Source: Nereocystis luetkeana (taxonomy: Eukaryota; Sar; Phaeophyceae; Laminariales; Laminariaceae). From it: a stretch of 64,000 bases of DNA. Both the position numbers and the translations under genes were made by a program. The notes under the pieces were generated by a model. The model searched no databases and was not told the DNA's origin. It saw only the letters and a program-made list of their open reading frames with translations. This document shows positions 3,126 to 61,930 of this stretch, piece after piece. The DNA is taken from NCBI GenBank assembly GCA_031213475.1, contig JARUPZ010000009.1, positions 9,457,601-9,521,600 of the forward strand. Reading direction: 5' to 3'. Each line of letters opens with the position of its first letter. Position 1 is the first letter of the stretch.

Positions 3126-3960
3126 AAGAACCCCCTGTCAAAAATACGCCCCTACTATACTACTCCAGAAGCGGTGGTACTGGTATATAATATCGGCACT
3201 CCCCTAATAATATATTAACCTAGTATGTAGCACCGGGTTCCTTGCCCACGTTAATCACCATGGTATTGGCCAAATGACACTGGGTAAGTACAGTAGTGCT
3301 TATATCAATAACACAACATCCACGTATAGAAGGAGAATCAAAATTCAACGACTTAAGAAATGACCAATCAGACCAGGCAGGGATATAATAACCTGTTGCG
3401 GTGTCGCGCTGGCGCAACATTTATTTTGGTCAAAATGGCAGATTTCCGGAGCCCCTTTGAATTCGCCGCAGGCATTTTTTTTTAAGCCCTGCGAACCATA
3501 TGCGCTCGCTACCGGTACACGTCACAGTAGCCTGAGAGACGTATTTTTTTTTTGACTGCTGATAACGGCACCGAGTCTACGCCCGCGGTTTTGTCGACGT
3601 GGCCAACTTCGCCAGGCCTCCCCTCCCCTGTGTGTCTTCTTTTACCGTTGAACCAAGCCCGCCCCCTCCGCCTGAAGAGTTCGCCCCCCCCTCGTCGGAA
3701 GGATATATATATATATATATATATTATATACCAGGTATATATCCCTCGTCGGCCGCAAGCCATTTCCGCAGTAGAACAAAATACGTTCATTTTCTCTGAT
3801 CCCGATACACACACACGCGTCTTTTCGTGGTTCGGGAGGCGTTTAATTAAACACACGGTGCTATTAATTACTTGCCATTTGGGCATATATTCGCGCATAA
3901 TAAAATGTTTTGCTGCGCGCACCAGTCACCGTACCACTTTTTTTACTCCTGAATCAGACC
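3126..3960. other. No gene recognised; short TA microsatellite
   Basis: There is no recognisable coding sequence. A TA-dinucleotide run lies near 3702-3730 and carries an exact TACCAGGTA at 3729-3737. Confidence 0.4.
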
Positions 3961-4909
3961 TGATTTCTTGAATCGGACGCTGGCTACCTCGGCTGAGGTC
4001 TTAAGTCATTGTCACAAGGCAACACATGTAGGGTTCTCTAACAGTTGGTAGGAGTGGCAGCTTTGGGCCACGGGTTACCACTCAGATATGCATAACCCAA
4101 AAGGAGAACACAAAGACGAGACATAAATGACCAACCTCAGTGACAGAGCAGAACTTGAGTCCGACCGAGTCCAGAGGTGCGCTCCTACGTCTCCAGGAGA
4201 GTACGGCGAGCTTGTGGTTCTTCTGTGAAGAGGCTCCAACTGGAGATGGCTAGATGGTAAGTGATTGCTTGTCCCGTGACCGAAGAGATGGTCGCGGGAA
4301 CTAACTGAGACGGAAGGGGGATGAAAACCTTCCGCCCGGAACGGAGCTACAATATGAAAAGGCCTCTATGTCATCATAACTCCTGAACCGGTCAACCGAA
4401 CCGTAACATGCCCCCTAGCATAATGCGAATGACGGAATGAGCATTATGCTATCGCAATCTTGTGACTATAACCAAGTTTAAAGAGCCGCAAAGCCCTTTA
4501 ACACAAATAACGGCCTCAGGGATAAACAACCAAACCGAAATCGCAAAGGCCATCAGTGGGAAATCCCTGAGAAAAACCCACACCCTTGCTTTTTCACTGC
4601 GAGTTTGGTTGCCCGACCACTATTCAATGGCTAAAGTCCCCCCACGTTCATTCAGCGATGAAATAAGCGCAGTGTCCCCTAACGCTTAAGCATAAATCGC
4701 TTCTATTGCGTCCTCAACAATCCAACGAAAATCGAACACAACAGAGAAGGTAACTCCGCCTCCTCGGTCAAAACCATAAGCTAACCTACAAGGCAAGGCG
4801 AAAAGCAAACGCAAAACTAAAATCGAAAACCACTAGAACTAAACGGAAAAGAACCAACACGGCCTCTTCGGTTGAAACACGACACACAAAAAGCAAGCAG
4901 AAACACTAG
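3961..4909 (-). other. Non-coding block, possibly the 3' UTR/LTR of a decayed retroelement
   Basis: This block follows, in minus orientation, the decayed retroelement-like C-terminus at 5032-5448. It has no coding frame of note and contains a short inverted motif (GCATAATGCG / GAGCATTATGC near 4420-4450). No second LTR copy is visible, so the LTR idea rests on position alone. Confidence 0.25.
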
Positions 4910-4931
4910 ATGAAGGAGAGAGATGTTTGCA

Positions 4932-4979
4932 GGGGAAGATCTTCGCAGGGGAAGGTCTTCGCTGGGGAGGATCCTCGCC
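4932..4979. repeat. Three 16-bp near-palindromic tandem repeats
   Basis: Three consecutive 16-mers, GGGGAAGATCTTCGCA, GGGGAAGGTCTTCGCT and GGGGAGGATCCTCGCC, each carry a near-palindromic core. A related core, AGATCTTCG, recurs just downstream near 5001. Confidence 0.6.
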
Positions 4980-5031
4980 GGAATTGCCGGATGAAGGAGC
5001 AGATCTTCGTCTCAGCAGAGCGTGGATCGTT

Positions 5032-5448
5032 TCAGTCCTGCAACCGTTCCATCTCGCGACGGGTCAGTTCTTCCCAGTTGTTATCGGTGTAGCGCACTCG
5101 CCAGTAGCGGTCTCTGTAATCTTACACTTGCCCCTGCAGTCGCAACCCACCGCCAAAGTCTTTCCAGATGGTAAACCCTATCAGAAACAGCGTCAAGGCT
5201 TCGCGGCGACGAAGGGCGGGCGTACGAGGGGTGACTGAGACTGGGGTCGTGTCTTTAGTCGGGTCGGGGTTGTACAAGTGCCAGAGTGCGATAAAACCGT
5301 CCAACTGCAAGGGTGTAAAACTCTGTAACACGTCATTCTCAGTTCGCCATTCTGTCTCTACTCCCTCTCTCGATCTCCCCTTGTACTCCCATCTAGTGGT
5401 GCCGGAGGCCTGGTTGGTGTCTCCCTTCAGCATGGGCGACAGCAACAA
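5032..5448 (-). pseudogene. C-terminal fragment of a probable retroelement polyprotein
   Basis: A minus-strand frame opens near 5448 and runs to a TAA near 5122. The same frame then continues to a TGA at 5032-5034 through a segment with YWRVRYTDNNWEELTRREME. That aromatic/acidic pattern resembles the short Tudor/chromo-like C-terminal segments of some retroelement polyproteins; this is family knowledge recalled without a search. The internal TAA and the lack of an upstream pol domain show it is a broken relic. The 5' end merges into the dispersed modules at 5400-5480. Alternatively it is the tail of a host chromatin-reader gene, which I think less likely in this setting. Confidence 0.4.
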
Positions 5449-6085
5449 AGGTCCCCATAGGTACAGACCCGACCATTCTGTTCATTCACCCCGTCTAAAG
5501 AAACAAACAAACGAGCAGACAAACAAAAGAAGGCGAATCAAAAGGAACCAAGAGAAAATAAAACAGGTATAAGCCCCGTGGCTAAGGCACAGGCCTAGAG
5601 GGGCCTGGTTGCCGTCTCCCTTCAGCATGGGAGGCAGCAACAACGGTCCCAATAGGCGCAGACTCAACCAATCTGGGCATCCACTCTCTACTAGAGAAAT
5701 GAAGCGAACACAACGAACACAAAACATACAACAAAATGTGCTGCGTTCCCAGCGACGCAGAGCAAAGCGTCGCGGGTTTGACGAGTGGCGTACGGCGAGA
5801 GCAGCCGATACGCAGACAGGCAAATGATAAGCGAATGTCAAGATAAGATATAGGACGAGTACAGCAGCAGTGAAACACGGGACGTCAGCAAAATAGCAGC
5901 TGGTAAGCACATATATACATGTACGCGGTATACGAGAGTGTGTTAATCTCTGCCCGCACAGCATGTTGAAATCGGCGGCACAGATCAACCGAACATATTA
6001 GTATTCCAGAGAGACCTCGTTGTTATCTCTCTGCCGGATGGAGACGGCAACAATGGTCCTCTCAGGCTCAGACAAACCCATATAT
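5401..6085. repeat. Three dispersed copies of a ~75-bp hairpin-prone module
   Basis: Related sequences at about 5401-5475, 5598-5672 and 6010-6082 share GCCTGGTTG, GTCTCCCTTCAGCATGGG, GGCAGCAACAA-GGTCC and an AGGCGCAGAC-like end. GTCTCCC and GGGAGGC can pair across the TTCAGCAT loop. The AGGCGCAGAC end links them to the tandem array at 6795-7860, so the array may have been amplified from this module. The origin is unknown; a SINE is possible. Confidence 0.5.
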
Positions 6086-6794: not shown

Positions 6795-7860
6795 AAGGCG
6801 CAGACTCAAAAGACGTGGTTGTCCTTCGAGCGCAGACCCATCCGGTTATTACGGCAGTGGCGAAAACTCACGGCACAGTATTACGGGGGACCATAGTTAA
6901 TAGGACCTATGGTACACATAAAAACCTATATATTTAACCATTTTTACTCACAATATTTGGTCCTATTAACTATGGTCCCCCGTAATAGTACAGTAATGTA
7001 ACCAGGACAGGCGCAGACTCAATAGACTTGGATGTCGTTCGAGTGCAGACCCATTTATTACGACAACAGTGAGGAAATTTGAATAGGATCAGCGAGAAAT
7101 CCACGCATAACCGTACTACAGTGGCGTGAAATCACGGCACAGTAGTACAGGAAAGTAACTAGGAAAGGCGCAGACTCGAAGGGCGTGGTTGTCCTTCGAG
7201 CGCAGACCCATCCAGTAATAATACATTAGTGGTGATAAATCACAGCACAGGAGCAACGTAAACGTATTCAGGAAAGGTGCGGGCTCAAAATACGTGGTTG
7301 TCCGTCGAGCGCAGACCCATCCCGTAAAAAATATAATGGTGGTGAGAAATCACAGCACCGCAGTAACGTACTATATTCAGGAAAGGTGCGGGCTCAAAAG
7401 ACGTGGTTGTCCGTCGAGCGCAGACCCATCCGGTTATTACGACAGTGGCGAAAATTCAAAAGTAATTGAACAAAAAATAGGTAATGATCATAGTAAAAAA
7501 ACAGCCGTACTATAGTGGCGTGAAATCACGGCACAGTAGTACAGGAAAGAAACTAGGAAAGGCGCAGGCTCGAAGGGCGTGGTTGTCCTTCGAGCGCAGA
7601 CCCCTCCAGTAATACATTAGTGGTGAGAAATCACAGCACAGAAGCAACGTAAATGTATTCAGGAAAGGTGCGGGCTCAAAAGACGTGGTTGTCCGTCGAG
7701 CGCAGACCCATCCAGTAAAAAAAATAATGGTGAGAAATCACAGCACAGCAGTAACGTACTATATTCAGGAAAGGTGCAGACTCCAAAGGACGTGGTTGTC
7801 CTTGGAGCGCAGACCCATCCGGTTAATATTATTGCGACAGTGGCGAAAAATCAAAAGTGA
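6795..7860. repeat. Tandem array of ~109-bp hairpin-containing units
   Basis: Eight units start with GGCGCAGACTC or GGTGCGGGCTC at about 6795, 7012, 7167, 7276, 7385, 7560, 7667 and 7774. Clean spacings are 107-109 bp. Each unit has the form GGYGCRGRCTC-stem-ACGTGGTTGT-stem-GAGCGCAGACCC, so it can fold into a hairpin. The 216-bp spacing between units 1 and 2 equals one unit plus the 105-bp MITE and its TA duplication. Earlier relatives at 6495-6760 are more diverged. No coding frame spans the array. Confidence 0.75.
6881..6985. mobile_element. 105-bp MITE with TA target duplication (TTACGGGGGACC family), copy 1
   Basis: The element starts TTACGGGGGACCATAG and ends with the reverse complement, CTATGGTCCCCCGTAA. 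The inverted repeats run about 27 bp and extend through TTAATAGGACC. TA flanks it at 6879-6880 and 6986-6987. A neighbouring repeat unit at about 7135 has the matching unoccupied site, CGGCACAGTAGTACAG, and the occupied unit is longer by 107 bp. Related copies lie at 29403-29506 and 47446-47556. The TA duplication points to a Tc1/mariner-type non-autonomous element. Confidence 0.85.
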
Positions 7861-8160: not shown

Positions 8161-8927
8161 TGAACCTACTGAAGAGAGAGATAGAGAGGTAGACATGCAA
8201 TAACACAGTGTATACTCGTACGTACGTAATTTTGCCTACTACTGTAGTCTATTAAAATGATCTGACTCACAGTTATAACGTTATTACCAAGACAAATGAA
8301 AATGAAAAACGTGGCTTGCAAGGATGCGTATCGACCTCTAACTTGCAAGAACAATAACTAAGAAAGGGGGAGGGAAAAGGACGTGCCTTAAATTTGTGTG
8401 TTGCGTTAGCCGTGAGGCATTTTTATTTCACAGATAACAGCAGCAACGAAGCGTGGTGAAGCGGCGACGGCAGCGGCAACATACACGCACGTGGTAAGGG
8501 CAGCACACAAGCCCGTGACAGGCAAGCGACGGCAGTAACGACGTACGCGACAACAGCTGGCTTGTGGAACACGAGCCTGAGAGTCTCATAAGCGAGCGCA
8601 CTTGGACACTCGCGCTCTCAAACCTCGCATCATCGTCAGGCTTACGCTTGTTTTTCATTCATTCTTTATTTTGGCTGCTGTGTGGAAGAGGTGATGGGGG
8701 TCTGACAAGTGCGCTGCCAGCTTTAAGACTCCCACCTGCGCCATTTGTTCAATACACGTCGAGCCAAGCACGCAAACTGAGGATACCAGAGTGAGAATAA
8801 ACGATGTGGACACGCGCCAGGGAGCAAGTCGCTTCCTGGTTGTGTCATGCATCATGAATTATACCAGGTACTCAGGCATTCCCCGACAAAATAAAATAAT
8901 TAATTGAGTACAGACCCCCTAAATAAT
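8161..8927. other. No gene recognised
   Basis: There is no supported coding sequence or repeat family. It contains an exact TACCAGGTA at 8862-8870. Confidence 0.4.
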
Positions 8928-9990: not shown

Positions 9991-9999
9991 GTAAGTAAG

Positions 10000-10257
10000 T
10001 GTTGATTGATCTCTAAAGGTATAGACGCAGCTGGCACGGGAACGCGTGGTTGACTCCAGACAATAACACGGAACTTCTCTTATATATATTATTACGTATC
10101 AGTGCTGTCGAGTGACTCAGGTGGCGGCGCATCCACACGATTATCCATCACATTGCAGGCATAATCAATCTCCCGCTCTTATAATCCCACATCAATATAT
10201 GGAACTCCCTGATACTAAATGAAACATCTACGTCGTGTCTATTGAGCACAGTCAATA
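10000..10257 (-). repeat. 3' LTR of the copia element
   Basis: This 258-bp direct repeat of 16589-16846 differs at about two sites (AACACGG versus AATACGG, GCATAATC versus GCACAATC). In element orientation the LTR starts TATTGA and ends TCAACA, a near-perfect 6-bp terminal inverted repeat. Confidence 0.95.
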
Positions 10258-10270
10258 TCCCCCCTGCTCA
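10258..10270 (-). other. Polypurine tract of the copia element
   Basis: On the minus strand GAGCAGGGGGGA lies directly before the 3' LTR, the expected position of the plus-strand primer for reverse transcription. Confidence 0.8.
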
Positions 10271-11059
10271 CTATACACGGACCATACTTCAATATCCCCC
10301 CAGGTCGGCAACATGACAATGTACGACTTCGCTGGGTCGATATATCTCTTCTTTATGACCAACTCATATGAACTTCAGAAACTCAAATACCCAACATGTG
10401 ACTCAAAAATCAAATTCTCGGATCAACACTCAAATCCTCAAACCAGTATTCAAATGCTCAAATCCATAGCCTCTCTCCGTTGCAAACATATAAAAATACC
10501 GAAATCCAATGCCAGGTAAAACGGCATTCTTCTCGGATTCAGCCAGGTAAAACGGCATTTTCCGCGGAATTGATTCAAATATACATCACAGTGTCTCTTC
10601 AGTTCTACCGACCTCTCTCAATTTCCGAATACTATCCAGACCTTCCCTCGTCGGAAAACATTTTCATGTGGACCGCACACGCCCCCAGGCGCTTCCTAGT
10701 CTCACTTCAGCCTTGTCAAAAACCTAAATCACAAGTATCATCAGAAAAATACCACAGTAGTGGTCATGCCAATTAAAATAAAATCAAGTCAAGAAACTTA
10801 ATGCCAAAGATCGCGAGGAACCCCGTTCCTCCGGACAAGAGTCTCCCCTTATCCCCTACTCCCGCCACAGATACACAGATCGCGACGGTAATGCGAGATA
10901 GCACATAGGTTTCCCCACTAGAAATTTATTTGACGTTGTGACCACTCGGAAAACACCTAAAAAACTTTCAAAATCCGTTACCAGAAACAAAACGATTTTA
11001 TAGTTCAAACACATTCTTCACTCAAAATAAGTAAAATAAAACATCTCGGAAACAAGGCG
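10271..11059 (-). other. Long 3' untranslated segment of the copia element
   Basis: About 790 bp separates the pol stop from the polypurine tract. No recognisable domain or env-like frame is present; the frames on the opposite strand are short and featureless. Confidence 0.6.
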
Positions 11060-11893
11060 TCAAAGGTTCATCAGAAAATCCCGGTGGTAACGAAAAACCA
11101 TGTTGTTGAGCGGCTTTGTTAAGAAGTCTGCGCGCTGCTCCTCCGACTCTACATGGGTAATAACAAACTCCCCCTTGGAAATAAGCTCTCGCAAAAAGTG
11201 GTGTCGAACGTCGATGTGCTTAGAATTCGACGTGCACACTGGGTTTTGTGCCAGGTGCCTTGCCCCCTCGTTATCCTCGAAAACCGTAATGCATCGCTCC
11301 CCGAACCCCGGAAAAATGAAACTCCAAACGTAGCGCAAGAACATCGCCTCCTTGATAGTGTCTGCTAGTGCTACATATTCGGCCTCAGTGGTCGAGAGCG
11401 TAACGCATTTCTGCGTCCTAGAAAACCAGCACACACACGCCCCAGCACACATGATAGCCCCACCTGAAACTGACCTCCTGTCAGTGGCTTTGTTGGCGTA
11501 GTCCGCATCCGCAAACGCTACCAGTTCAAGCCCGCTACCCTTCTGAAACGTAATGCCGAAATCACTCGTAGAAAAAACATACTCTAAAATACCGACCGCT
11601 GTCTCCCAGTGTACTTCCCTCGGCCTATTCGTGTACCTCGCTACCGCCCTCACCGCGTTCGCAATATCCGGTCGTGTTTGGTTCGCAAGCCACATCAAGC
11701 ACCCCACCAACTCGCGGAAAGGCCAATCACCCACGGGTTCATTCTCGTCGAACTCTTCGAGCTTCACACCAGTCGAAAGCGGATTATTCCTCCCGGAACT
11801 AACACCAAACCTCGCCGCGGTCCTTTCAGCGAACGCCTGCTGCGAAATCGTCAAAGTACCAGCATCCCAATCCCTCGAAAAACAACAACCAGC
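11060..11893 (-). pseudogene. pol: copia pol, segment 4: end of RT and RNase H
   Basis: The frame continues from the RT segment after a TAA at 11894-11896. It opens with the RT thumb/connection (FSRDWDAGTLTISQQAF). RNase H follows with FADADYANKATDRRSVSG, the LSTTEAEYVAL helix and FEDNEGARHLAQNP; the catalytic D, E and D are all present. HIDVRHHFLRE and ADFLTKPL, near-invariant in copia RNase H, close the protein. Its function is to degrade RNA in the RNA-DNA hybrid during reverse transcription. The preceding stop cuts it off from RT in a normally translated product. The residue replaced is probably Tyr or Trp, by analogy with copia relatives. Confidence 0.85.
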
Positions 11894-12475
11894 TTACCAC
11901 CGCAACTCGCCCAGATTGTTGATCGGAACAAGGCTGTTCAGGTCTTCACAGAACTGATCGCACCTAGCCTTGCGCCCTACAGCAAAAATATCATCCACAT
12001 GAACCACTGTTACTATGGAGACAGAGCCCGACTCGACCAACCTCATGACACACGCGTCAGCGGGGCTCTGCTCAAAGCCTAGACTCTTCATGTGAGTGAG
12101 AAGGTGGTTGTGCCACGACCTCGACGCTTGCTTCAAGCCATAGAGACTGCGGTTCAACCTGACTACCTTACCGGACATTTCGCCGCAGCCAGGGGGCAGT
12201 CGCATGAAAACATCCTCATCCAAACTCGACTGCACGAACGCTTGCTCAGCATCAAAATGACACAAATCCAGACCCAACTCGCACGCAACGGCACCCAGCA
12301 AACGGAAACAAGACGCTGCAGGGGTCGGAGCAAAAGTCTCAAAGAAATCAATACCCTCACGCTGCTTGAAACCTCGTGCCACCAGCCTTGCTTTCGCCCG
12401 CACCACATCACCATGCTCGTTGGACTTCCAGGCGAACACCCACTTCGCCGAGATGACGTTGAGCCCCTCTGGTTG
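11894..12475 (-). pseudogene. pol: copia pol, segment 3: reverse transcriptase
   Basis: The frame is the same as the flanking segments, entered after a TAG at 12476-12478. Copia RT motifs appear in order: KWVFAWK, KARLVARGFKQREGID-FETFAPT, CHFDAEQAFVQSSLDEDVFMRLP (first catalytic Asp), LNRSLYGLKQASRSW and VVHVDDIFAVG (catalytic Asp pair). The YVDD box common in copia reads HVDD here; both aspartates are kept. The segment ends at a TAA after GELRW. It synthesises cDNA in virus-like particles when intact. The catalytic core looks undamaged, so loss of function comes from the stops. Confidence 0.88.
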
Positions 12476-12740
12476 CTACGTCGCTCCAAACGTCCCCGCG
12501 TCCGCCAGTCCATGATATTCCTTGTCCATCGCCTGCCTCCAGATCGTCGAATACTCGTCCACACACGCTTCAGCATACGAGTTCGGCGTCGAAAGTTCGC
12601 TTGCCGGGCGCGTGGGAAGGGGAGGATTCTCGCGCGGTGGGGCTTGGTGGAAAAGTACATGGCCTATACCTTCCCGTGCTGCCATCAGCGATAGCAGCCC
12701 ATGCCCCATAGCCTCGCGGTTCCGCGCGGTCTCCCCTCTT

Positions 12741-13000
12741 GTCCGCCCCCTCAGAACGTCCCCTTCCTCCGGGTGTCGTCCAGCTTCCCCCACTGTCCGA
12801 CCACCCTGTACACCGCCGCCACCCTCCTGGTGCCGTGCAGTCTCCCCCCTTGTCCGCCCCCTCAGTACGTCCCCTTCCTCCGGGTGTCGTCCAGCTTCCC
12901 CCACTGTCCGACCACCCTGCACACCGCCGCCACCTTCCTGGTGTCGTGCAGTCTCCCCCCTGGTCCGCCCCCTCAGTACGTCGCCATCCTCCGGGTCCGG
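12741..13000 (-). repeat. 111-bp coding tandem repeat in the copia linker
   Basis: GTCCGCCCCCTCAG recurs at 12741, 12852 and 12963, an exact 111-bp spacing, giving two full units and a partial third with few differences. The period is a multiple of three, so the frame is kept. Confidence 0.85.
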
Positions 13001-13039
13001 GATATCAGAACCCAGTTCCCGAGCAGCACGCTGCAAAAG

Positions 13040-13300
13040 CTGTGGCTGCGATGACTGCTGCGGCGGCGACGGCGATGATCTCGGCGGCGACGGCGACGGC
13101 GGCGGCGGCGGCGGTGGCGACGGCGGTGGCGGTGACGGTGGCAGTGGCGGCGGCGGTGACGATGACGGCGGCAGCGACGGCGACGGTGACGGCGGGGGCG
13201 GTGGCGACGGCGACGGCGGCGGCGGCGGCGGTAGCGGCGGTGATGACGGCGGTAGCGGCGGCAGCAGTGGGGATGGGGACGGTAATTCGGGCCATACGTC
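13040..13300. repeat. GGC/GAC trinucleotide-rich tract
   Basis: Degenerate GGCGGC, GGTGGC and GACGGC triplets encode the Pro/Ser-rich part of the copia linker on the minus strand. Open frames on the other strand across it (Gly/Asp-rich and Ala-rich) are artefacts of the triplet repeat. Confidence 0.85.
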
Positions 13301-13696
13301 AGGGCCTCTCAGAGGCTCCGGCGTACCCGGGGGCGGTGGTGACGGCAACGGCGGCGGCGGGGAGCTCTCCTCCTCCGAAGGCAGTAACCCCACGAACGGC
13401 TTCCTCGGGTGCTCCCAAGTGACGTCGCGGGAGAACGACCTCCGGCCAGATGCCAGCAGAATCTTGCTGCAGTCAGCTGCGTGGTGGTTGCCGCCGTTGA
13501 GGTAGAAACAAGCCTCCGCCTTCGGCTCGGTCTTCAAGCTCCTCCTGACGTGGTGGAAACCTGGCTTCAAAAATGGGAGCAGCCGCGCAAATGGTGCTCT
13601 CCCGTAAAATTTGCGGTACGGCGAGTGCATTTCCGGCTTGTCCCTCACCCTTGCCGTTATGTTGATGACGTCGCTCGCGTACACGCAGGACTCAGC

Positions 13697-15634
13697 TCAA
13701 AGGGGCTGCGTCGCCGGCATCCTTGCATCGCCGAACAGGCGGGGGGCCTTCAGGCGGGACGCCATTGCAAGCTCCAGCGTCATCGCAATTCGCCGCTCGA
13801 CCACGCCGTCATGCTTCGGAGAATCGACGGGCGTGTGCTCGCGGCGAATACCGTGGTGGTTGAGCAGCTCCACGAACTCCGCCTTGGTGAACTCGGTGCC
13901 GTTGTCCGAGCGAAGGCACTCCACGATGGACGGAACACCCTTGGCGTTGATGTTGGCCAGAAAACCAGCGAAGACCTTCGGGACGTCGGACTTCCGCTTC
14001 AAGAAATACGGCCATCCCAGTCGCGAGTAGTCGTCGACGATCATCATCATGTACTGCGCACCGCCAGCAGACGTCGACTGCTGTCCCGACAGATCCACGA
14101 ACAGACGTTCCAGAGGCCTGGTGGAGCGGCACTCGGTCGTCCACGGTACAGCCATCCTCCTCCCCTTCGCCTCAGAACATCCAGCACACGAAACCAACTC
14201 CCCAAAAACCTTAATGCCCATCTGGCGTGCCGTCTCACGGAGAGTGTCAGCATGGGAGTGGGCAAGGGAAACGTGAAGGTCGATAATATCAATCCTCCGC
14301 ATTTTTCCGGGAGCCAAAACAGCGGCAGCAATCGGGGTCTCTACAGTCCGCGTGGCGTCTACGTACGAACCTGCGTCCTTACGCATAAAGGACAATTGCC
14401 CATCCAACAAATGAGCTCCCTGGGAATCTAAAGTCACCGGGCATTTCAGCATTACTGCGTGAAGTGAAGACAGGTTGAACCGAACACCGGGCACGTAGGC
14501 TACGTCCAAAAGCCTAACCTGGACATCACACTGCGGGCTGTGCATTACCATCGGAATCTGTCCAAAGTACTCGACCTTCAGTGACCTCATGTCACCGACG
14601 ACCAAACTACTCTTACCGAGGGGAGGGGGGTAACAGCCTACCATACCAAAGGGGTTTCCAGTTACGTGAAAGGTTGCTCCCGAATCCGCCACCCACTCTT
14701 CCCTCCCACTAGCCCAAAACCAATCGTCGCTAAAAATACTCTTGCCTTGGTGCGCAAACTGCGCGGTGAGGAGTTGCGGGTCGAACGTAGGCGTAGGGTT
14801 GCCGTTGTTCGCTGGGCCAGGGGAAGGGAAAGTGCTCGAGGAGGGTTGTTGTGACGGGAAAGCTCCGGCTGAGGTATACCCACCACTGCCGTAGGGCGTC
14901 TCCTGCTGCCAGCCACCTCCGTAGTATATCTGTTGAGGGGGAGGGGCAGCAGTACTCGGGACTGCGACGTTCATCTGCGGGGCGGCTACCGGGCAAGCTG
15001 CGACGTAGTGGCCGTGTTTGCCACACCGAAAACAGACCCCCTTGCTCCTGGGTTGCGTGTTGTTCGGCGGGAAACCCCAGCCCGCCGGAGTCGTTACGGG
15101 CGGCGGGGGCATAGGGGGCATTGCCCCTGGTAGTGGCTCGGTAGGTACCCAACCCATGGGCGGGACCGCCCCACCCGTACCGAAGGGGTCGGGACCGGAG
15201 TTATCCCAACTGTACCTGCAGGCCACGGCATCCCAACGCCATTTGGGGCCGGTAATTCCCCCCGGCGAAGCTCCTCCCCGGTTGCCATCATGCCGACGGA
15301 GACGATGCTGCTGCTGCTGGTACTGCTGTTGCTGGGGTTGTTGCTGCTGCTGCTGCTGTTGATGGTACTGCTGCTGCTGCTGGGGTCGCTGCTGCTGCTG
15401 CCGCTGCTGCTGCGGTCGCTGCTGATACTGCTGCTGCTGTTGATACTGCTGCTGCTGCTGCTGCTGATACTGCTGCTGCCGCTGCGACTGCTGCCCACCC
15501 TTGTACCTCCCGCCTCTCCTGTCCCTCCTTTCCCTTCCTGGACCCGCACCTCCACCACTGGTAGGCTGCGCACCTCCGGCGTACAAAGTATGCTGGTTTC
15601 CCACTCCCTGCACACCCAACGCCTTGGAAACCAT
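13697..15634 (-). pseudogene. pol: copia pol, segment 1: zinc knuckle, protease, integrase core
   Basis: A 645-codon frame starts with an ATG immediately after the gag TAA (15635-15637) and is in the same frame as gag. In order it has a Gln-rich tract (residues about 50-115), a zinc knuckle CFRCGKHGHYVAAC (about 200-213, CX2CX4HX4C), an aspartic protease active site DSGATFHVTG (about 315), the integrase zinc domain (HVSLAHSH and CAGC, about 451-480), and the DDE core in LFVDLSG, RSDNGTEF and GVVERR (about 511, 576, 611). It ends at TGA where copia relatives commonly have Trp. Its products mature Gag and insert the cDNA. All visible catalytic residues are present. Confidence 0.9.
15290..15500. 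repeat. CTG/CAG trinucleotide tract encoding poly-Gln
   Basis: On the plus strand this is CTGCTG runs with TGATACTG interruptions; on the minus strand it encodes the Gln-rich segment after the Gag stop. Triplet purity is high, so length variation between copies of the element is likely. Confidence 0.85.
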
Positions 15635-16516
15635 TTATTTATCTGCCTTATCGTTTGCGTACGCATCGCGGATGATCTCATCGATCTCGGAACGGGGGAT
15701 GGACGGGCGGGAAAGAACGGACTTGCTTTGTATCATATATAGAGGCGAGAGGTTCGTCACGATATGTCGGTTAACCTCTTCCACACTCATCCCACAGCCA
15801 AGCATGGTCAGCTCATCTGCTGCCTTATCCACCCTCCCTAGGAACAGCACGGGGTTTTCGCCCTCGACCATTCTGATGGTTGTAAACTCTCTCTTCAGTC
15901 TTTGGGTGGCCGCTATTGTCCTTGGCATGTAGTAATCTTCTAATTCCTTCCATGCACCACTTGGCGACATTGCCTTCTGCATTCTGAACTCAGCCATTGC
16001 GTATCCAGTCATTGCTTCCATCATCAGTCCATAAACTAATCGGGCATCCCTAATCTCCTGAGGAGAATGCCTCGATGCTAGCTCCTCTTCCGACACCCTC
16101 ACGTCACCAACCATAACAGGGGTTGACGTGCTTAACACATGAAGGCACCCTAGGGATGACAGGTACGCTTCGAACTTGCTACGCCACATACTAAAGTGGG
16201 CTTCTATGTTATCGAATTTGGGGGGTCTCGACTGGGACAAACTAGGGCGGTATAAAGAAGTGTTTGGTGACATGCCTGGACGGGCTCCCAGCCCAGGTGT
16301 CTTCACCGTCGATGCTGCTGGTTCCCTCGCAGCTGCTTCTCCTCTCGCCCCCCCACCGGCCTCCCCTTCCATTCCTTCTTGCGGCGCGTTCCTCTCGGCG
16401 CCCAGCTTCAGCTCTTCTATCATCTTCTCCAGGATCTCGATTTTCTCTTTCATCCTCAGCATCTCTTCCATGGCCACACTTGTTTCCTGACTAGACATGC
16501 CATCTGAACCAGACAT
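15635..16516 (-). CDS. gag: copia Gag-like protein (UBN2-type)
   Basis: The first in-frame ATG is at 16514-16516 (MSGSDGMSS); the frame is open from a TGA just inside the 5' LTR. A predicted coiled coil (MLRMKEKIEILEKMIEELK) lies near the N-terminus, followed by an Ala/Gly/Glu-rich linker. The Gag domain follows, with LEDYYMPRTIAATQRLKREF and a conserved region through NPVLFLGRVDKAADEL to NRHIVTNLSP, the pattern of copia Gag (UBN2/Retrotran_gag families). It would form the virus-like particle. It stops at TAA (15635-15637), with the nucleocapsid zinc knuckle lying beyond the stop in the same frame. Confidence 0.85.
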   Translation of the reverse strand: MSGSDGMSSQETSVAMEEMLRMKEKIEILEKMIEELKLGAERNAPQEGMEGEAGGGARGEAAAREPAASTVKTPGLGARPGMSPNTSLYRPSLSQSRPPKFDNIEAHFSMWRSKFEAYLSSLGCLHVLSTSTPVMVGDVRVSEEELASRHSPQEIRDARLVYGLMMEAMTGYAMAEFRMQKAMSPSGAWKELEDYYMPRTIAATQRLKREFTTIRMVEGENPVLFLGRVDKAADELTMLGCGMSVEEVNRHIVTNLSPLYMIQSKSVLSRPSIPRSEIDEIIRDAYANDKADK

Positions 16517-16588
16517 GTCGGAAGGTTCCCACCTCTCTTGGTTGGCCTCGGCTACGCTTGCCAATAGAAGATCACCGGTTCACTAGTG

Positions 16589-16846
16589 TGTTGATTGATC
16601 TCTAAAGGTATAGACGCAGCTGGCACGGGAACGCGTGGTTGACTCCAGACAATAATACGGAACTTCTCTTATATATATTATTACGTATCAGTGCTGTCGA
16701 GTGACTCAGGTGGCGGCGCATCCACACGATTATCCATCACATTGCAGGCACAATCAATCTCCCGCTCTTATAATCCCACATCAATATATGGAACTCCCTG
16801 ATACTAAATGAAACATCTACGTCGTGTCTATTGAGCACAGTCAATA
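16589..16846 (-). repeat. 5' LTR of the copia element
   Basis: This is a 258-bp LTR, near-identical to 10000-10257. The sequence directly inside it (CTAGTGAACCGGTGATC in element orientation) does not start with TGG, so priming by an intact tRNA 3' end is not obvious. Many copia elements prime from an internal tRNA fragment, which could apply here. Confidence 0.95.
16662..16682 (-). promoter_or_regulatory. Putative TATA box in the copia 5' LTR
   Basis: In element orientation the LTR contains AATATATATAAGAGAAG, the best TATA-like sequence in it. Transcription would then start roughly 25-35 bp downstream, near 16640. This is inferred from motif and position only. Confidence 0.45.
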
Positions 16847-47445: not shown

Positions 47446-47556
47446 CAACGGGGGACAATGGTAAATAGGACCTGCGGTAAAACCAAAAACCTACCTGGTA
47501 TACGTTTCCCTGTCTTACTAACACTATTTGGTCCTATTTACTAGGCCCTCCGCAAT
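47446..47556. mobile_element. TA-flanked MITE (TTACGGGGG family), copy 3, diverged
   Basis: ACGGGGGACAATGG-AAATAGGACC on the left and GGTCCTATTTACTAGG-CCTCCGCAA on the right match copy 1 in inverted arrangement. The interior carries a TACCTGGTA (47492-47500) where copy 1 has TATA. A half-copy end (TATGGTCCCCCGTAA) lies near 47612. Confidence 0.65.
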
Positions 47557-47769
47557 AGTAAACGGGACGTAAATCTATAGGATTTTATGTGTACCGTACG
47601 TTATGTTTTCTATGGTCCCCCGTAATGTACACTGCTGTACTCGTACGGAGTTTTAGTGGGAGGGGAATAATCAGTATGCCCGTACATACCCTGGTACAGT
47701 TTTGACTCCTTGCCATCAATCACGTGCTGTATCTACAGTAGTAGATACTTGAACTCTTTACAGCAGTAC

Positions 47770-48899: not shown

Positions 48900-50957
48900 T
48901 TGATAGGGTGGTGTCCATCTAGACCACTAGGGACCAGAGTGGGCTCAGCAGCGTGTGTGGAGCAGGGGGATATATATGGAGGAGTAGCAGGCAGCCACAA
49001 CTCTGACTCCAAAAGCATGTACAACTGCTGTGTAGCAATGAGGGATGTTTCTTTTATCCTCCCGGGGGCCAATAGCCTGGGCTACTCGCCCATGGCTATT
49101 GCTCTTATCGACGTTTTGTTTTTATAAAATGATGAAATACGTCAGCGGTGAGTTCGACTGATTACATAGTTGATACTCAACTTTGCAAGCTGCGTAATAT
49201 GTCTCGTCTATATCCCGTTTTAGTTTGCAGAATTCTCCGTTAAAAATTGTCCACGGTAAAGAGACAGAATACAACAGCTACCTCGTTGCAGACGAGACTG
49301 CTGCTATTAATCCCGCGGGATATGGGGTACCGACCGACCGCTGGAAGGGCCCCTCTCGCCTCGCGCGTGTGTATTACTTCACATGAAACAGCGTTTCTAC
49401 TCGACGATGTCCAACACTCAGTGTCCGTGCTGATTCTTCGCCCTCGAGAGATGCGTACACAAAGTGAAGGCTCTATGGTCACAAACTACTGCACATAGAT
49501 AGCAAATAGCAATGTAGTATCCGCGAGCCGATTAGGCAAAACAGTCAATGCCATGCTGGCGTCCTGAGTACGACAAGTGCAAGGAGCAAACGCCAGCAAC
49601 CTAATCATCCAGGACTACGTACGGTGAAGGTTTTGGGGTTGGAAACATATTCCAGAGTTGTTACGATTTTTCAATATATATCAAGCTTTCTATAAATATA
49701 TACCAGGTATATCGTATCGCACGTGGTTTTGATCTCCCTCGCCTGCCTGTAATTATCTCCCCAATGCTCAACTGCCGTAACTACAGACTTATGCCCGCGA
49801 TATTCAAGCGCCGCCACCGGTTCTAATCCGTGCTCTTCCGGATGACACGAACAACAAGAACGTACGACTTACAACTCTAATTGAGATTTCGCGAAACCAT
49901 CTCTATGTCAGTCCCCGCGCTTCGTGGAAAGGTCGAGCGGTGCAACACCCAGCTTACGAGTTGCTCCCTTACTGACATTCCCGTGTATTTTATGGAGACA
50001 CTACTGTTTGGAACGTTTGTACCTATCAAATATATTTGGAGACATTATGCATGAGTTACCTATGTAGCGACTATAGTTTATGGTACCAACTGTCTCGAAA
50101 TGAATTAAGGTTCGATATCAAACACTCCTGTGTAATAACCTCACATGCATTAAGTCGTTGGATTCTAGATGCCCTCTCTTATGTAGGGCGGGGGTGTCCG
50201 ATAGTGATTTTCGACACCTTACATCGGTTTGCGCAACTTCAACTCTCTCGACAGGGGGAGGGGCAGGGTACCTGACACCGTCCCCTCACTCTACGCCTGA
50301 AAAATACCTATGTATCACTGACATCGGGAGACGGTAAAAAGTTTGCCCTCCCCTGCTTGATACAAGGGAAACCAGCAGCCTAGCAAGAGCCGTTCTCCCC
50401 TCCGTTTGAAGCAAGCGAAACGAGGGGGCGGTGGAGAGTCCCCCTCGTCCTTGCTGCCTTCCAGAATGCTTTGTACTGTGATACCTCGTACCACTTTGCA
50501 GCGGCAACTACTTGTAGGCCTCAGCTACGTAATTGCGTCGACTGCAGCAGCAGGGAGTGGCGCTAAAGAGCTCCAATCTCGTTGTGAGGCAGACCAGGAG
50601 GCCCCGATGAGCCCTGGTTCATCAGGCTTGGCTATGTATGCACTGCCCGCAGAAAGGTCGAGAGTAAGGAAGATTTCGCGTGGAGAAAACGTTGATAGGA
50701 AAACGATTTTTTGGACAACTAGGCTCTCGACTACTATGAATTAAAACACCTGTCAGTAAGATGGATACCCGTTTTACCACATGCCGACGCAGCGCCCATC
50801 CAAGCACCCGACCAGATCACTGGTAGTAACTCGAACGTTATGTTGTGAGATTTACCAGGTGCAGTAGTTAGTGGAAAACCGGCTACCAGGTATGTTCGAG
50901 GACGAGGCGTGCGCTTTGTCAGTGTTACCACACGATTCCAGAATACATATTATTTGA
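48900..50957. other. No gene recognised
   Basis: Only short overlapping frames are present. TACCAGGTA sites lie at 49701 and 50884. Confidence 0.4.
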
Positions 50958-51347: not shown

Positions 51348-51845
51348 CCTCCTGTCTTGGGGCATCTATTTTTCGCAGTGGTCGTTCCAGAAAAGAATAC
51401 GGCAAGCACAAGTCCATACGGGGTGTATGGACAGATGTGCGTGCTGCAGCTTGACCTTCAGGTATAAAACAACGGTCTACCTGACACAGAGAAATTCTAC
51501 CGTGTGTTTGGCGCGCCCGGGCGGGGGGGGGGGGGCGTTCACTCTGCGGACAGTGCTATTTCTGGTTACGAAGCAGATAGGAAAGACGGATCAGCTATAT
51601 ACAGCAATCCCCATTCCCCCCCCGCTGTTACCAAGTGGTTTGTCCTCCTAAACACGCCGGCGAGACTCAACCGAAACGGTGGTAAACCAAGGTGAAAACG
51701 CTACGACATTATCACCTGGGGCGATACTGCCACAGCAGTGATAAAGCAGTATAACGGGGGACAAGATGAAATACGACCAAGATAAATGTATTGGTTTTCG
51801 TGCGTACGGTAGGCCCTACCTGGTACCAAATATGGTCGTCCGGAA
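50998..51845. other. No gene recognised; TA and G runs
   Basis: A TA run lies at about 51317-51341 and a G run near 51521. A diverged relative of the TTACGGGGG MITE may start at 51754 (TAACGGGGGACAAGATG). TACCTGGTA is at 51817. Confidence 0.35.
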
Positions 51846-55676: not shown

Positions 55677-57090
55677 AGTGGAAAACTTGAAAAGCGTGTG
55701 CCAACCGCGTGCCTAGAAATATTGTCGCGTGCTACGTTGCCGGCGTTGAAGTGCCCGTCCACTCCTGCAGCACATATTTTTTTCCCAATGATAGTGCAGA
55801 GTTCCCACTGGGGATCACCCTGTTGTTTGCCCCTCGAAGTTTATCAAGCTTCGCCTGTTGTATGTCAGCTGCATGCTTCGAGGGGGGCACCACTGTTTGA
55901 TGGAAACGTGAGAATATTCAAGGCAGATGATGGTTGTCTGCTGAGGAACCGCTACCGTTCGCAATATTCACCACTTGATCCCTATTCTATATATATTTCA
56001 AAGTGTCATTGAAAATTGGTAGAGCTAGGCCGTGGGACTGCTCGTTGGCTTGACCATGTCAGTATCGCAGTCGCGGTTTGGGAACAAACTGCTGTATGTA
56101 GTTCAAGGGGCTTGTCCCCAAAAACGAACGAGACTGCGGTCCTAAAAGATTTGGTTAAGCGCGAACGTTTTCGTGCTTGAGGTCGTTACTGAGTGGGGTA
56201 TATGTGAAGCTCTGTGAAAATGAGAAGCCACACTCGGCAAGATGGGGGATCGCCCCTGCTGTCGTTGATCGCGTACATTGACAAATTTCAGGTCCGTGCG
56301 CATGTACCGTGTCGGCATATATATTTCTCCTCTCCCCTTTGAAAGCGTTCAGGATTGAGCACACCAAGCGCTGTGGGATATCATGGCGCGACGTCCAAAC
56401 TTAGTTGAAGCTATGGCTGCTCTCGGTGCCGCACGTGTCGTCGCTCTATCCTCCGGTGAGTCAACGTGTATGCTTCCAGTAGTTTTGCGTTACGTGAATG
56501 CATCCTATCCAGAACCCCCTCACGCCGTGTTTCTCACCTTCTGGGTTGTTTTTATATTACTCCTGTAGTGTGGTTACGGGTGATAGTGTAGGCGGAGAGA
56601 GATTATAAGAAGTTAAAGGCACCCGTCTGCCTCTCCTGCGTTGCATTAAATACAGTGCTCGACATGTTTAGAACTTGGCAATAAAAAAATGGCCAATACC
56701 TGGTATATTTTTTCAGTCAGGAATTAACACACCGGCGTTTTTTTCCCCAGCATGGTATGCCGCTCTTAACCCTTAAGAATGACATTTATTTATTACCTAG
56801 GTGTAGACGCTGGCACCCGAAGCCGCCAACCTTACCTCAGCTTAAACAGGCTATTTTTTTCTGCAGCGTACAGTACAGTATAGACGTATGTTTACATAAT
56901 TATATATATCGATTTGTGATAGGGTGGTCTCGTCTTTGTTGACATACTACATCCGTCGGCACCACCACGTACGGGAGTTTCTTCGGTACGGCCAGTGAAC
57001 CGAAGCGGTTTGGCTCGAGGTAGAGTAATTAAATCGGTGGGAAAACATGCATAAATAAGTACTCGGTGAATATACTCTAGGTCAACCCCA
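55677..57090. other. No gene recognised
   Basis: A TTAA-MITE half copy (GTCCCCAAAA, GACTGCGGTCCTAAAAG) lies at 56107-56149. TACCTGGTA is at 56697. No gene is supported. Confidence 0.4.
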
Positions 57091-58003: not shown

Positions 58004-60382
58004 ACGGTTATCCGGTGCGGTGTTTTCAAATCGAAAAACCAACGGTCCGATTCGGTACGGTTCTCAGGTTTTGTAAATTCTACGGTGCGGTTCGCTGCGG
58101 TTTTGAGATATTGTGAATCCCACGGTGCGGTTCCGTATTGTTATAAATCTTGTGGTACGGTCCGGTGCGGTTTCACAAATAAATATGGAAATCCTACTTT
58201 TTGCTGTTGTTCGTTGCGGTTTGTTTGAAACAAATCGACAATCTTACGGTCGGTGCGGTTCGGTTTTGTCATATATCACACTGTACGGTTCGGTTCGGTT
58301 CACCATTGAATCGGTTTTTCTACGGCGCGGTTCCAATCTCCGTAGAAAAAACGCACAACACATGTGTTTCTCTACGGTGAACCGTATATTTAAACAGTGC
58401 AAAAACCGCGGTTTCGTTCTGTTATCAGGCCACAAACGAAACCCCTGTTTCTCTGCGGTGCACCGGCGTATGCAATAGCCGTACAAAACCGCGGTTTCGT
58501 ACGTTTCTCACACTTTTTATCGGGGTACTAACGCAATCGCTGCCTCTCGATCAGCTGCAAGCGAGCGCTGCTGCAAGCAAGCGCTGCTGCAAAACAACTG
58601 CTGCTGCAAGCAAGAGAGACACCTCGAGCAAGCACTGCTGGACGCGCTGTTGCAGGCGCTGCTACAGCTTGCGGTTGCTGCAACTGCTGCAAGCGCGCGC
58701 ATCCTTGCCGCTACGCCCCTGTGATGTTCGCCACTCATACCGCTTTTCGGGCAGAGGGGACAGCGAAGAAGAAGGAGGGCCGATCTTCTCGTTGTGGCGG
58801 CGTTGCTTGCGCTGCGAGTGTTGAGGAGCGCAGGTTATATCGCATGTCTGCCTGTTGTTGGTGCCTGCTGCTGCTTACTGTTTCTGCAGCTTGCTGCTGC
58901 CCGGTGGTGCTGGTATGCTGCAGGCAGGTACAGCAGTACTGCTGCTTGCCCGACTTCTGTTAGTGTTCTCCTTGTTGAGTGCTGCAAAAGTGCTGCCGCT
59001 GCTGCAAGTGTTTATTTTCGAACCTACAATCCAAATTTTGAGCATATTATGTTCGTCTCTCATTATGCGCATGCCGGAAAGCTTTCGTTTTTTACTATAT
59101 TTCCGACGGAAATCCTTGATAGACAAATATATCATGATGTATAGACACTCCAATGTCTCTGTGAAAATGTTCACTTTTAAAATTTAACAGATATTCTATT
59201 TTTTCTGCTATTTTCAGATTTTCCGGCAGGTGTAATTTGCGGGGTCGCGGAGTATATATTAAATCAGAAACAAATCAATATAAACAATTGAATCTCTTTT
59301 TTTTGCTTTCAACCACTAAAGTATATCCAAAATATAAAATACCAGAAGATCAACCAAGGCAGCGAAAATACGATTGACACGAAACCGTGCCGAAACCGTC
59401 ATGAGCCGTGCGACACCGTGACCCTCTTGCATCGTTCCGCGCCCGATGGAACGTCGGTTTTTCTACGGTTTCGAGTTAATCGCACCGTAAATAACCGATC
59501 TACCGGTGTTTGGCACCGTATCTTATCGCACACGGTGCGGTGCGGTTTCGATGGCATTTCTACGGTAAACAACATATTCGCCTGATTGAGAGCGAAGTAT
59601 CTGATTGAGAGCGAGAGCCAAATACATTGAAATTTCGGGTCCAGACGCCTCTTGCCATTTCTTGGTAAGTAGGGGACGGGCTATTCCAAGAAGCGGCGCA
59701 AATTGAAGGTCTCGTCAGCAGCGTCGCGAGCATATTGTGCGTGTCATCGCCATCATCGGATGCTGCAGCTAGGAGCTAGACAAGTTGCTAGATTTCCCCA
59801 GATTGGCTATAATGCCTCAAACTGTTTCGCCTCGGGCGGTGGGCTCTACTGTAGCTTCTGCTCCCGGCTGTAGCTCCACAACGAGAGACTCCCACACGAT
59901 GACCAGGGTAGCGGCTTGAAGCTACGGGCTAGCCCTTCAATTCAAGCTACACAGCAAGCTCCACCTCTCAGCGGTAGTCCGGCTACAGCGTATCGCGCAA
60001 TCTCGCTCTCAATCAGATACTACGCTCTCAATCAGGCGAACATGTTGTTGGTACTGTTCCGTGCGGTTTCATGAAAATTAATCAGGAATCTTACGGTGCG
60101 GTCCGGGGCAGTTATAAAATATCGCAAATGCTACGGTGCGGTTAGGTACGGTTTTCAGATATCGGCAACCCTACGGTGCGGTTCGGTTGTATTGGAAATC
60201 CTACGGTGCGGTTCGGTGCGGTTTTCCTATTTATTTCGTAAAACCTACGGTGCGGTTCGGTGCGGTTTTACGATTTCGTAAAGCCTACGGTGCGGTGCTG
60301 TGCGGTTTTCAAGAGGCAAAAATCCTACGGTGCGATGCGGTGCAGTTAGCCCCACCCAACCGATAGGATAAACCGCACCATG
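58004..60382. repeat. CGGTGCGG composite repeat element, copy 2
   Basis: It has the same part order as copy 1: CGGTGCGG array (58010-58330), ACCGCGGTTTCGT motifs (58400-58500), GCTGCTGCAAGC core (58545-59010), GATGGAACG linker (59440-59520), a second CGGTGCGG array (59530-60350) and a reversed end (CCGATAGGATAAACCGCACC). It also holds about 380 bp of AT-rich sequence (59010-59390) not seen in copy 1 and the MITE at 59568-60049. It sits inside the CGATAGG satellite. Confidence 0.78.
59568..60049. mobile_element. 482-bp MITE with 49-bp TIRs, copy B
   Basis: GGTA flanks both sides (59564-59567 and 60050-60053). Ends are AACAACATATTCGCC and AACAACATGTTCGCC. It is a full-length match to 25355-25837 in reverse orientation. 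It interrupts a CTACGGTGCGG unit of the surrounding composite element, so it is younger than that element. Confidence 0.9.
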
Positions 60383-60414
60383 AAAATCTCTGGTATTTCC
60401 CACGCTTCATAGCT

Positions 60415-60600
60415 CATCATGGCGATAGGTAATGATATGAGGACAGTTCACCATCCCATTGTTCGGACGATATAGGCATCGATATCCGTATGCCGATTCG
60501 CCTATCTTGGCTTTTCGCCAGTCAGTCAGTACTGTACATATCGACAGTAAACCTCTTCCGTACTATTCTGCTGTTAGTTGTGGGCGATAGGTGAGAGGTG
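60415..60600. repeat. Remainder of the CGATAGG satellite
   Basis: GGCGATAGGTAATGAT, CCCATTGTTCGGACGATATAGGCATCGAT (partly altered) and GGGCGATAGGTGAG match the array left of the CGGTGCGG element. Confidence 0.6.
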
Positions 60601-61011
60601 TATGAACCTTTCCGCCATCGTGTATATAGCGATAAAAAAAAAACTATCGACAGCAAAGCAGTCCTTTGCGCCGTTCAACTAGAATTAGGCAGTGTTAGCT
60701 TTGTGTCTCCCTTTCTTTGGTCCTTGTGCCTGCTAATGTTCGGCTCGCGCTTAGAGTGTTATGTTTTTGTCCGAGCTTTGGCTCTCAAAAACTCAATCAT
60801 CATAGCCGTTTGATCTCGTCGCTCGTTTTCCGTTCTCTTCATCCGTTTCTTCCTTCTGTTCTGCTCGATTTAAAAAGGAAATACATATTTCTTCTTTTGT
60901 ACTCTCTTCCTGACAGCTGTGTACTCTGGTTGATGGCGAATGTATGTCATATGTCATCGTTCCTGTCGTACCCGGGACGATGTCGCGGCATCGCGTCGTC
61001 AAATGCATTCA
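60601..61011. other. No gene recognised
   Basis: No supported gene or repeat family. Short overlapping frames only. Confidence 0.35.
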
Positions 61012-61101
61012 CCCTTTTTAGAACTGCAGTCTCATCTTGGGGGAAAACCACGAATTTTTCAAGTAGTTTGTCCCCGAAACGGAACTGCGGTCCTAAAAGG
61101 G
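61012..61101. mobile_element. 90-bp MITE, TTAA family, copy 2
   Basis: Starts CCCTTTTTAGAACTGCAG and ends CTGCGGTCCTAAAAGGG with an internal TTTGTCCCC match to 18980-19068. The flanks are TTCA and TCAA, probably mutated TTAA. It lies directly next to a GT microsatellite that is the tail of a LINE fragment. Confidence 0.7.
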
Positions 61102-61105
61102 TCAA

Positions 61106-61145
61106 GGTGTATGTGTGTGTGTGTGTGTATGTGTGTGTATGTGTG
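61106..61145. repeat. GT/CA microsatellite at a LINE 3' end
   Basis: GT repeats with GTAT interruptions abut the minus-strand LINE 3' UTR that starts at TTCTTCACATTGAA. Confidence 0.85.
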
Positions 61146-61350
61146 TTCTTCACATTGAACTGCCAGCACAACCAGTGTCCGTGCCGATTCTTCAATCCTA
61201 GAAGGGATACAAGTTCTGTGGTCACAAAGCTACGCCACAGAGATACTACGTTGCCACGTACCTGGTATGCAGTAAGCACAGCAGAGGGCAATGCAAGGTC
61301 GTGTCATCATACTAGATAGGACAGGCACGTTATACACATTCTATGAAATA
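61146..61350 (-). mobile_element. LINE copy E, 3' UTR only
   Basis: TTCTTCACATT, CCGTGCCGATTCTTCAATCCTAGAAGGGATAC (in parts), GTGGTCACAAAGCTACGCCACAGAGATAC and TTGCCACGTA align with 51850-52075 on the same strand. It has an extra CCTGGTA relative to that copy at 61261-61267. Confidence 0.8.
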
Positions 61351-61930
61351 GATAAACGAAAGAAGACAAAAACGAAGACAAAACGCAAGAGAAAAAGAAG
61401 AAGGATGAAAGAAAAAAATGTACATCATATATATTTTAATATACTTCGTATATATATTTATAGAAATACAAGTTTTCGCTTCGGAGTGGCATGATGAGCG
61501 TAGCGTGTAAGGAACCTCTTGCCGAAATACGTATTTATTTGGTGCGTTGGTTTAAATTATTTCACCAATTGCAGTTGTATGTATGTGCTGCAGTTGGGGC
61601 AACAGCTCAAATGTACCTGTTGACAACCTACTGTGTACCTGGTATTAGTACAAGGAAAATAGTAGTGGAACACGCAGATAAGTGTGACGCAAGAGAGCAG
61701 TTTTAATGACAGAAAAAGCAGGTAGTACCTATGTATTACAGCTTTTATTTTATGAGATATGAAGGCGACATGAGCATGATACCTGGTATGTATGCAACTT
61801 CGACAGTAAGCACGTACTCGACGAATCGCAGCGCCAGTAGACACATGTCCCGCGACACCTAACGGTTCGACAAGGAACGAAACCTTCGGCGGACGCCCAA
61901 ACCAACTACGACAGAAATTCCTCAAGAAAA

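Follow-up and report, generated by a model that had tools for sequence, protein, structure and literature searches.

A TACCWGGTA motif abundant in the genome of the brown alga Nereocystis luetkeana probably marks the excision of a TA-targeting transposon

We analyzed a stretch of 64,000 nt from the brown alga Nereocystis luetkeana (GCA_031213475.1, contig JARUPZ010000009.1, 9,457,601-9,521,600, forward strand; hereafter the window), which carries a copia-type element, copies of a short repeat and 22 copies of the sequence TACCWGGTA (W, A or T). The original prediction, made from the letters of the window, held that this motif is about 45-fold over-represented and is the excision scar of a mariner-type transposon; we call it a scar below for brevity. 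All 22 predicted positions were exact, 8 being TACCAGGTA and 14 being TACCTGGTA on the + strand, and TACC[CG]GGTA was found once. Dinucleotide shuffles of the window (n = 100) gave a mean of 0.31 copies of TACCWGGTA and a maximum of 2. An order-3 Markov estimate gave 0.48, and order-3 simulations (n = 150) gave a mean of 0.59 and a maximum of 3; the excess in the window is thus about 37- to 71-fold, depending on the null model. In the whole assembly (465,085,209 bases in 1,987 contigs), where the reversed pattern served as the control, TACCWGGTA occurred 182,395 times against 1,744, about 105-fold or one copy per 2.5 kb, showing that the over-representation is real, genome-wide and far larger than claimed. 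A 264-kb sample, made up of the window and 20 further 10-kb pieces picked by position, contained 113 TACCWGGTA against 2.18 expected and 4 TACCSGGTA against 1.53 expected, the centre being almost exclusively A or T.

The exact matches in the window include TACCAGGTA at 3729-3737 (within a (TA)n tract), 8862-8870 (common to one paralogue), 18251-18259, 38156-38164, 49701-49709 and 50884-50892, and TACCTGGTA at 17856-17864, 32636-32644, 40184-40192, 51817-51825 and 56697-56705. The TACCTGGTA at 46961-46969 is followed by CCTGATT, and that at 24307-24315 by a one-mismatch unit, TACCTGATA, at 24314, possibly a decayed second scar.

Paralogous sequences allowed scarred and unscarred versions of a site to be compared. 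A 7-bp gain at a TA had been predicted for such pairs, and it was seen at several sites and failed at others. A paralogue spanned 18 of the 113 sites in the sample; 8 of these 18 showed a net 7-bp difference in at least one well-flanked copy (some through diverged alignments alone), 2 shared the motif with the paralogue, 2 had no well-flanked copy, and 6, among them the site at 41566, showed another difference. The 1,217 paralogue alignments from the sample yielded 454 distinct insertion differences. Of these, 13 had a length of 7 bp, and TACCWGGTA at a TA accounted for 4 of the 13. The clean cases in the window are TACCAGGTA at 41842-41850, a 7-bp gain relative to 40314-40476 (41940-42095 also lacks the scar), and TACCTGGTA at 61259-61267, a 7-bp gain relative to the copies at 41.6 and 52.0 kb and also to the 35.6-kb copy, whose TA itself is altered.

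At 27197/27204 the scar is doubled, with 4 further bases. Its first unit, TACCAGGTA at 27197-27205, carries the second, TACCTGGTA at 27204-27212, in its right-hand TA; the total gain is 18 bp relative to the paralogues at 35.6, 41.6 and 52.0 kb and 11 bp relative to the 61.3-kb copy. Because the first of these scars and that at 61259 sit at the same TA, they may represent one event inherited by both copies. The scars at 27204-27216 and 61780-61792, which belong to different loci, are each followed by TGTA, and this 11-bp gain, CCTGGTATGTA, may reflect slippage or a composite scar. The TACCTGGTA at 61780-61788 aligned messily to 21217-21724 but fits the 11-bp gain (7 + 4), and that at 61636-61644 showed a net 4-bp difference from 21105-21575 in an ambiguous alignment. 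In an AT-rich stretch, the TACCTGGTA at 21122-21130 corresponds to TACTTCGTA of equal length in its paralogue at 61421-61695.

The sequences flanking the scars carry a target signature. Reading outward from the scar (n = 206 flanks), A at +1 was found 11 times against 41 expected, T at +3 101 times against 57, T at +6 97 times against 52, and A at +7 99 times against 56; TA at +6/7 was present in 24.5% of 200 flanks against 6.4%. With both sides pooled, the preference is for a base at +1 that is rarely A, a purine at +2 and T at +3. In the window alone, A at +1 occurred in 0 of 44 flanks, and the chi-square of that set was reached by 18 of 4,000 random draws. The combination was absent around TACCGGTA, TACWGTA, TACSGTA and TACGTA. 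It was partly present around TACCATA (40 flanks, TA at +6/7 in 20%) and TACATGTA (24 flanks, 21%); in our reading the former would come at least in part from TACCATAGGTCCTA of a miniature inverted-repeat transposable element (MITE) described below. Excesses of TACATGTA (12 against 3.7), TACGTA (128 against 58.5) and TACWGTA (80 against 38) were also noticed in the sample, and these were set aside as related scars since they lack the full target signature. The scars alone thus show two traits of Tc1/mariner elements, a TA target with TA duplication and a palindromic AT-rich preference; Tc1-like elements are described as favoring ATATATAT, a palindromic AT target, around the TA (PMC7913693).

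We were not previously aware of a preference for a second TA at a distance of exactly 7 bp, which is also the spacing created by every scar. Adjacent scars sharing a TA at this spacing were found as 10 pairs in the sample, with some triples. The central base was the same in 7 of the 10 pairs and different in 3, and because a simple tandem duplication would copy the central base, at least some tandem scars are separate events. For another group, the Stowaway MITEs and Osmar5, re-insertion into the TA adjoining an earlier scar has been described (PMC1925063).

One recurrent target lies in a MITE-like family of 107 bp, TA-flanked, with ends TTACGGGGGACCATAG and centre AAAACCTATATATTTAACC. Copies are located in the window at 6879-6987 and about 47440-47590 and in the sampled pieces L011, L015, L017, L018, L020, L022 and L025. 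The copy at 6879-6987 is unscarred, its central TATA being the hot target, and the TACCTGGTA at 47492-47500 sits at this hot TA. In fetched sequence, the central TATA held TACCWGGTA in 3 of 18 repeat copies (our count among 22 printed rows) and TACCGGTA in 1 of 18. The hot-TA pattern AAAACCTACCWGGTA occurred 3,530 times genome-wide against 0 for the reversed control, these places not being individually verified as the MITE-like repeat. Counted by eye, the 100 places listed comprised 74 scars centred on A and 26 centred on T (p ~2e-6), an imbalance suggesting that the left-flank overhang prevails more often when the mismatch is resolved. An excess of TAGGWCCTA in the sample (10 against 0.65 expected) lies within the MITE and was set aside.

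Longer variants of the scar were found at the same hot TA. The search for non-standard forms, AAAACCTACCWGGNB, gave 415 places genome-wide against 32 for the control, and among 100 of these listed we counted, by eye, 52 CCAGGGT, 3 CCTGGGT and 6 CCAGGGG. Sequences of 601 or 341 bases each were fetched for 32 of the 100 (20 CCAGGGT, all 6 CCAGGGG and 6 others); 18 proved to be CCAGGG followed by TA, 6 were CCAGGGG followed by TA, and 8 were other forms. The left half of the repeat was recognized by eye in about 15 of the 20 fetched CCAGGGT places. The A bias next to the longer G run is 52:3, whereas ordinary scars at the hot TA show 74:26. This stronger bias suggests that the longer scars represent the true end sequence of the element, 5'-CCAGGG(G), with the cut lying 6 or 7 nt from the end, rather than slippage.

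In our view TACCWGGTA is probably what remains after excision of a cut-and-paste transposon that resembles Tc1/mariner elements and targets TA. The likeness to a Tc1/mariner scar is one of mechanism, and membership is not assigned without the parent. Insertion would duplicate the TA. On excision, a putative transposase of this class would cut the non-transferred strand some 5 nt in from either end, so that each flank carries a CCAGG 3' overhang. The two overhangs would anneal as CC:GG and GG:CC around a single A:A mismatch and then be ligated. Resolution of the mismatch to A or T would give TA-CC(A/T)GG-TA, lengthening the site by a net 7 bp, and cuts 6 or 7 nt inside would give the rarer TACCAGGGTA and TACCAGGGGTA. 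Because the scar is nearly homogeneous, and CCAGGG and CCAGGGG are found at the same TA, we infer that the ends of the element begin CCAGGG and that the stagger is about 5 nt. If this is true, TACCAGGGTA should be far more frequent genome-wide than TACCTGGGTA.

Such a mechanism would follow the scar rule of Sleeping Beauty with a longer, GC-rich cohesive end of four GC pairs, and this length and composition would make the scar very uniform. The scar of Sleeping Beauty is TAC(A/T)GTA, its overhang being CAG and its centre an A:A mismatch. The footprint is reported as C(A/T)GTA (PMC3878927) and the 3' overhangs as 3 nt long (PMC7827188). Sleeping Beauty and Frog Prince resemble the present case in the TA target, the palindromic scar whose A/T centre is bracketed by TAs (here 113 TACCWGGTA against 4 TACCSGGTA), and the palindromic AT target preference (PMC3878927; PMC7913693), as well as in 3' overhangs that we read as pairing except at the centre. 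They differ in the overhang, which is 3 nt (CAG) in theirs and would be 5 nt (CCAGG) here, and in that their scars are assay products whereas about 180,000 near-uniform genomic scars are known here without a parent. The plant Tc1/mariner elements Stowaway and Osmar5 also leave TA sites with leftover bases of the terminal inverted repeat (TIR), but their footprints vary, with TIR fragments of 1-4 bp (PMC1925063). Both the uniformity and the length of the present scar are unusual, because rice DNA-transposon excisions are described as mostly messy, with 8 of 94 perfect (PMC4423477), and Tc1/mariner footprints as 2-4 bp (PMC7913693). Two other groups were set aside: piggyBac has a TTAA target and scarless excision, as against the TA target and 7-bp scar here, and hAT elements have an 8-bp duplication and a variable footprint, as against the TA duplication and uniform scar here.

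The original prediction derived the same scar from a mariner-type element with CCA ends, whose 3-nt overhangs would be joined via overlapping A:A. Such a joint would account for the predominant scar with either central base. The ends of Mos1-type elements start with CCAGG, and the Mos1 footprint is of the TACCATA type. The model for mariner-like elements, Mos1-type included, has the cut two or three nt inside the end (PMC2642840). The joint would, however, lack Watson-Crick pairing, so that mixed products would be expected, and the predicted TACCATA/TATGGTA and TACCATGGTA were without clear enrichment in the sample: TACCATA was found 20 and 21 times against 17.0 expected per strand, and TACCATGGTA once against 0.38. 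The half-sites TACCWGGV (26 and 30 against 22.8) and TACCWGGTB (11 and 12 against 6.4) were counted in the same sample. Nor would CCA ends explain the CCAGGG and CCAGGGG scars. We regard this version as unlikely. Of the earlier mariner-type excision reading, the 7-bp TA gain, the genome-wide excess, the A/T centre and the TA palindrome are supported, with the target signature as additional support, whereas the 3-nt overhangs are less well supported. It is improbable that the short sequence is inserted directly, for example by a domesticated transposase or by a programmed, developmentally used, TA-specific excision system; the lack of a certain parent, the enormous number of scars and their uniform repair would agree with such a system, but there is no direct evidence for it, and the Tc1-like target signature and the re-use of TAs fit ordinary transposition. 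A cut 2 nt inside, leaving a CC overhang to which one untemplated A is added before joining, would predict TACCGGTA as the product without the added base, and TACCGGTA was indeed found 16 times against 3.28 expected in the sample (5-fold), with one copy at the hot TA of the MITE. Its flanks lack the target signature, though, a single added base that is nearly always A or T over about 180,000 events is unlikely, and CCAGGG is not predicted, which together make this route very improbable. That the motif is a protein-binding or otherwise selected sequence arising by substitution, or is carried by repeat families, is scarcely credible: some copies do lie within repeats and one site differs from its paralogues by substitution only, but flanks vary among sites, tandem copies may differ in their centre, and the clean 7-bp gains and the 4 of 13 seven-bp insertion differences speak otherwise.

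Several observations weigh against the Tc1/mariner-like excision scar itself. The site with substitution only is the TACCTGGTA at 41566-41574, where 5 of 5 copies are equal in length and the paralogues read TATCTGGTA, TATCTAGTA and TATCCATTA; it is either a scar of some age or the product of substitution. Base changes at constant length had been named as a refutation; it was seen at this one window site, while gains were seen elsewhere. The excess of TACCGGTA comes without the signature, yet one copy is at a hot TA; because the signature is absent, most TACCGGTA copies are something else. The 74:26 centre at the hot TA is uneven, unlike the expectation from simple mismatch repair, and the longer scars may have arisen by slippage in the G run. 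The length between the two TAs, 5 nt and at times 6 or 7, departs from the usual 2-4-nt footprint, and a 5-nt stagger would likewise exceed the 2-4 bp footprints given for the Tc1/mariner group (PMC7913693). Finally, the 264-kb sample contained no TA-flanked inverted-repeat element starting CCWGG beyond scars paired with scars, and the PF13358 profile gave 0 matches among 30 candidates scored, its control matching in 3 of 14 genomes.

The parent element had been placed outside the window, which agrees with our inverted-repeat scans, as these found no CCWGG-ended element there. The scans yielded scars paired with scars, MITEs and one fold-back element, and no parent was found in two scar-rich stretches. 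The PF01359 profile also gave 0 matches, with a control that matched in no genome, and is hence uninformative. No repeated sequence starting TACCWGG and continuing past the scar was found in the sample beyond the repeat at 30747/31847 and a hAT-like repeat. In 31 of the 32 fetched AAAACCTACCWGGNB places nothing suggested an intact element within the 601 or 341 bases. The remaining one, L047 (contig C2:4142164-4142764), has TACCAGGGTA, with TACCCTGGTA facing it at a distance of about 270 bp, and would be either a pair of independent longer scars or a small element whose ends match over about 8-13 bases. Intact elements could hide among the 68 unfetched and 315 unlisted places, and all 415 amount to 12% of the 3,530; scars seem to far outnumber any parent. 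The parent may be extinct, very rare, split by introns or too diverged for the profiles used. A parent family in this host is plausible because the related alga Ectocarpus has 17 Mariner-Tc1 families, with 11,912 copies that are mostly non-autonomous, and is likewise a brown-algal genome rich in such elements (PMC12477816); the words footprint and excision occur 0 times in the main text of that paper.

Several candidates for the element were rejected. The two TACCTGGGGTATGCACG copies at 30747/31847 belong to an ordinary direct repeat that has diverged, and TACCAAGCCACC and TACCGGGGGGGA are shared repeat sequence. TACCAGGGCTCTT (L027, L023) was rejected as a parent end since the copies in L018 and L013 start CAGGGCT without TA and are hAT-like. 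At L033, with a facing TACCCTGGTA, the left scar runs straight into the right half of the MITE and is a scar. The diverged hAT-like repeat is of the GGGTCGGGTC type with ends CAGGGCT, and was located from L027:3022 onward and leftward from L023:8845, L018:3729 and L013:6270. The fold-back element, on contig C1 at 218.5-220.2 kb (L031:4500-6180), has long arms that are 92.7% alike across the whole alignment, flanks included, with several small TA-associated differences between the arms.

We put forward tentatively a wider reading, which could well be wrong, that a Tc1/mariner-like transposon with an unusually long, self-cohesive 5-nt stagger (CCAGG) jumped well over 100,000 times in this brown-algal genome, leaving almost no copies, and left a record that is nearly all scars, each scar being a fresh landing site where hits recur. 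The last part is proposed because targets favor a TA 7 bp from another TA and excision makes TA-N5-TA. If true, one type of transposon would have added about 180,000 insertions of seven bases each, some 1.3 Mb in all, without a lasting gain in copies, such activity would be invisible to copy-number surveys, and the notion of messy excision repair as the usual outcome would fail here. The scars would also predict the ends of the parent (CCAGGG), a long stagger and near-error-free annealing of 5-nt overhangs. They are a dense record of insertion and excision, and the scarred repeat copies provide a natural experiment on mismatch resolution (74:26). In a literature search TACCWGGTA was unmatched, and none of the TACCTGGTA or TACCAGGTA matches, among those listed, had a title naming transposons.

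The density of scars is uneven, from 1 to 22 sites per 10-kb piece (20 pieces; variance/mean 5.1). The piece L021 (contig C11, 3,000,001-3,010,000) contains 22 scars in 10 kb between scar-poor stretches, perhaps a result of local hopping. One-mismatch forms of the scar numbered 83 against 50.6 expected in the sample, beside the 113 exact copies, and this excess of about 32 points to about 3% decay per base; most scars would then be recent, though not all fresh. The window alone showed no clear one-mismatch excess (15 against 11.9).

The copia-type long terminal repeat (LTR) element of the window spans 9999-16846, with LTRs at 9999-10257 and 16588-16846 that are 99% alike. No scar lies within it, against about 2.9 expected at the rate of the sample, which fits a young insertion, if weakly. 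Its polyprotein (13697-15634, - strand) shows 70% identity to a protein named as from Scytosiphon promiscuus and 38% to one from Ectocarpus, both brown algae, along with closer unnamed matches, and had no relatives in viral_contigs or genome_contigs. A comparison of 20 open reading frames of the window with Pfam gave copia-type domains only, together with two weak sub-threshold matches. Diverged arrays of CGGTGCGGTT units lie at 1394-3110 and 58023-60351 of the window.

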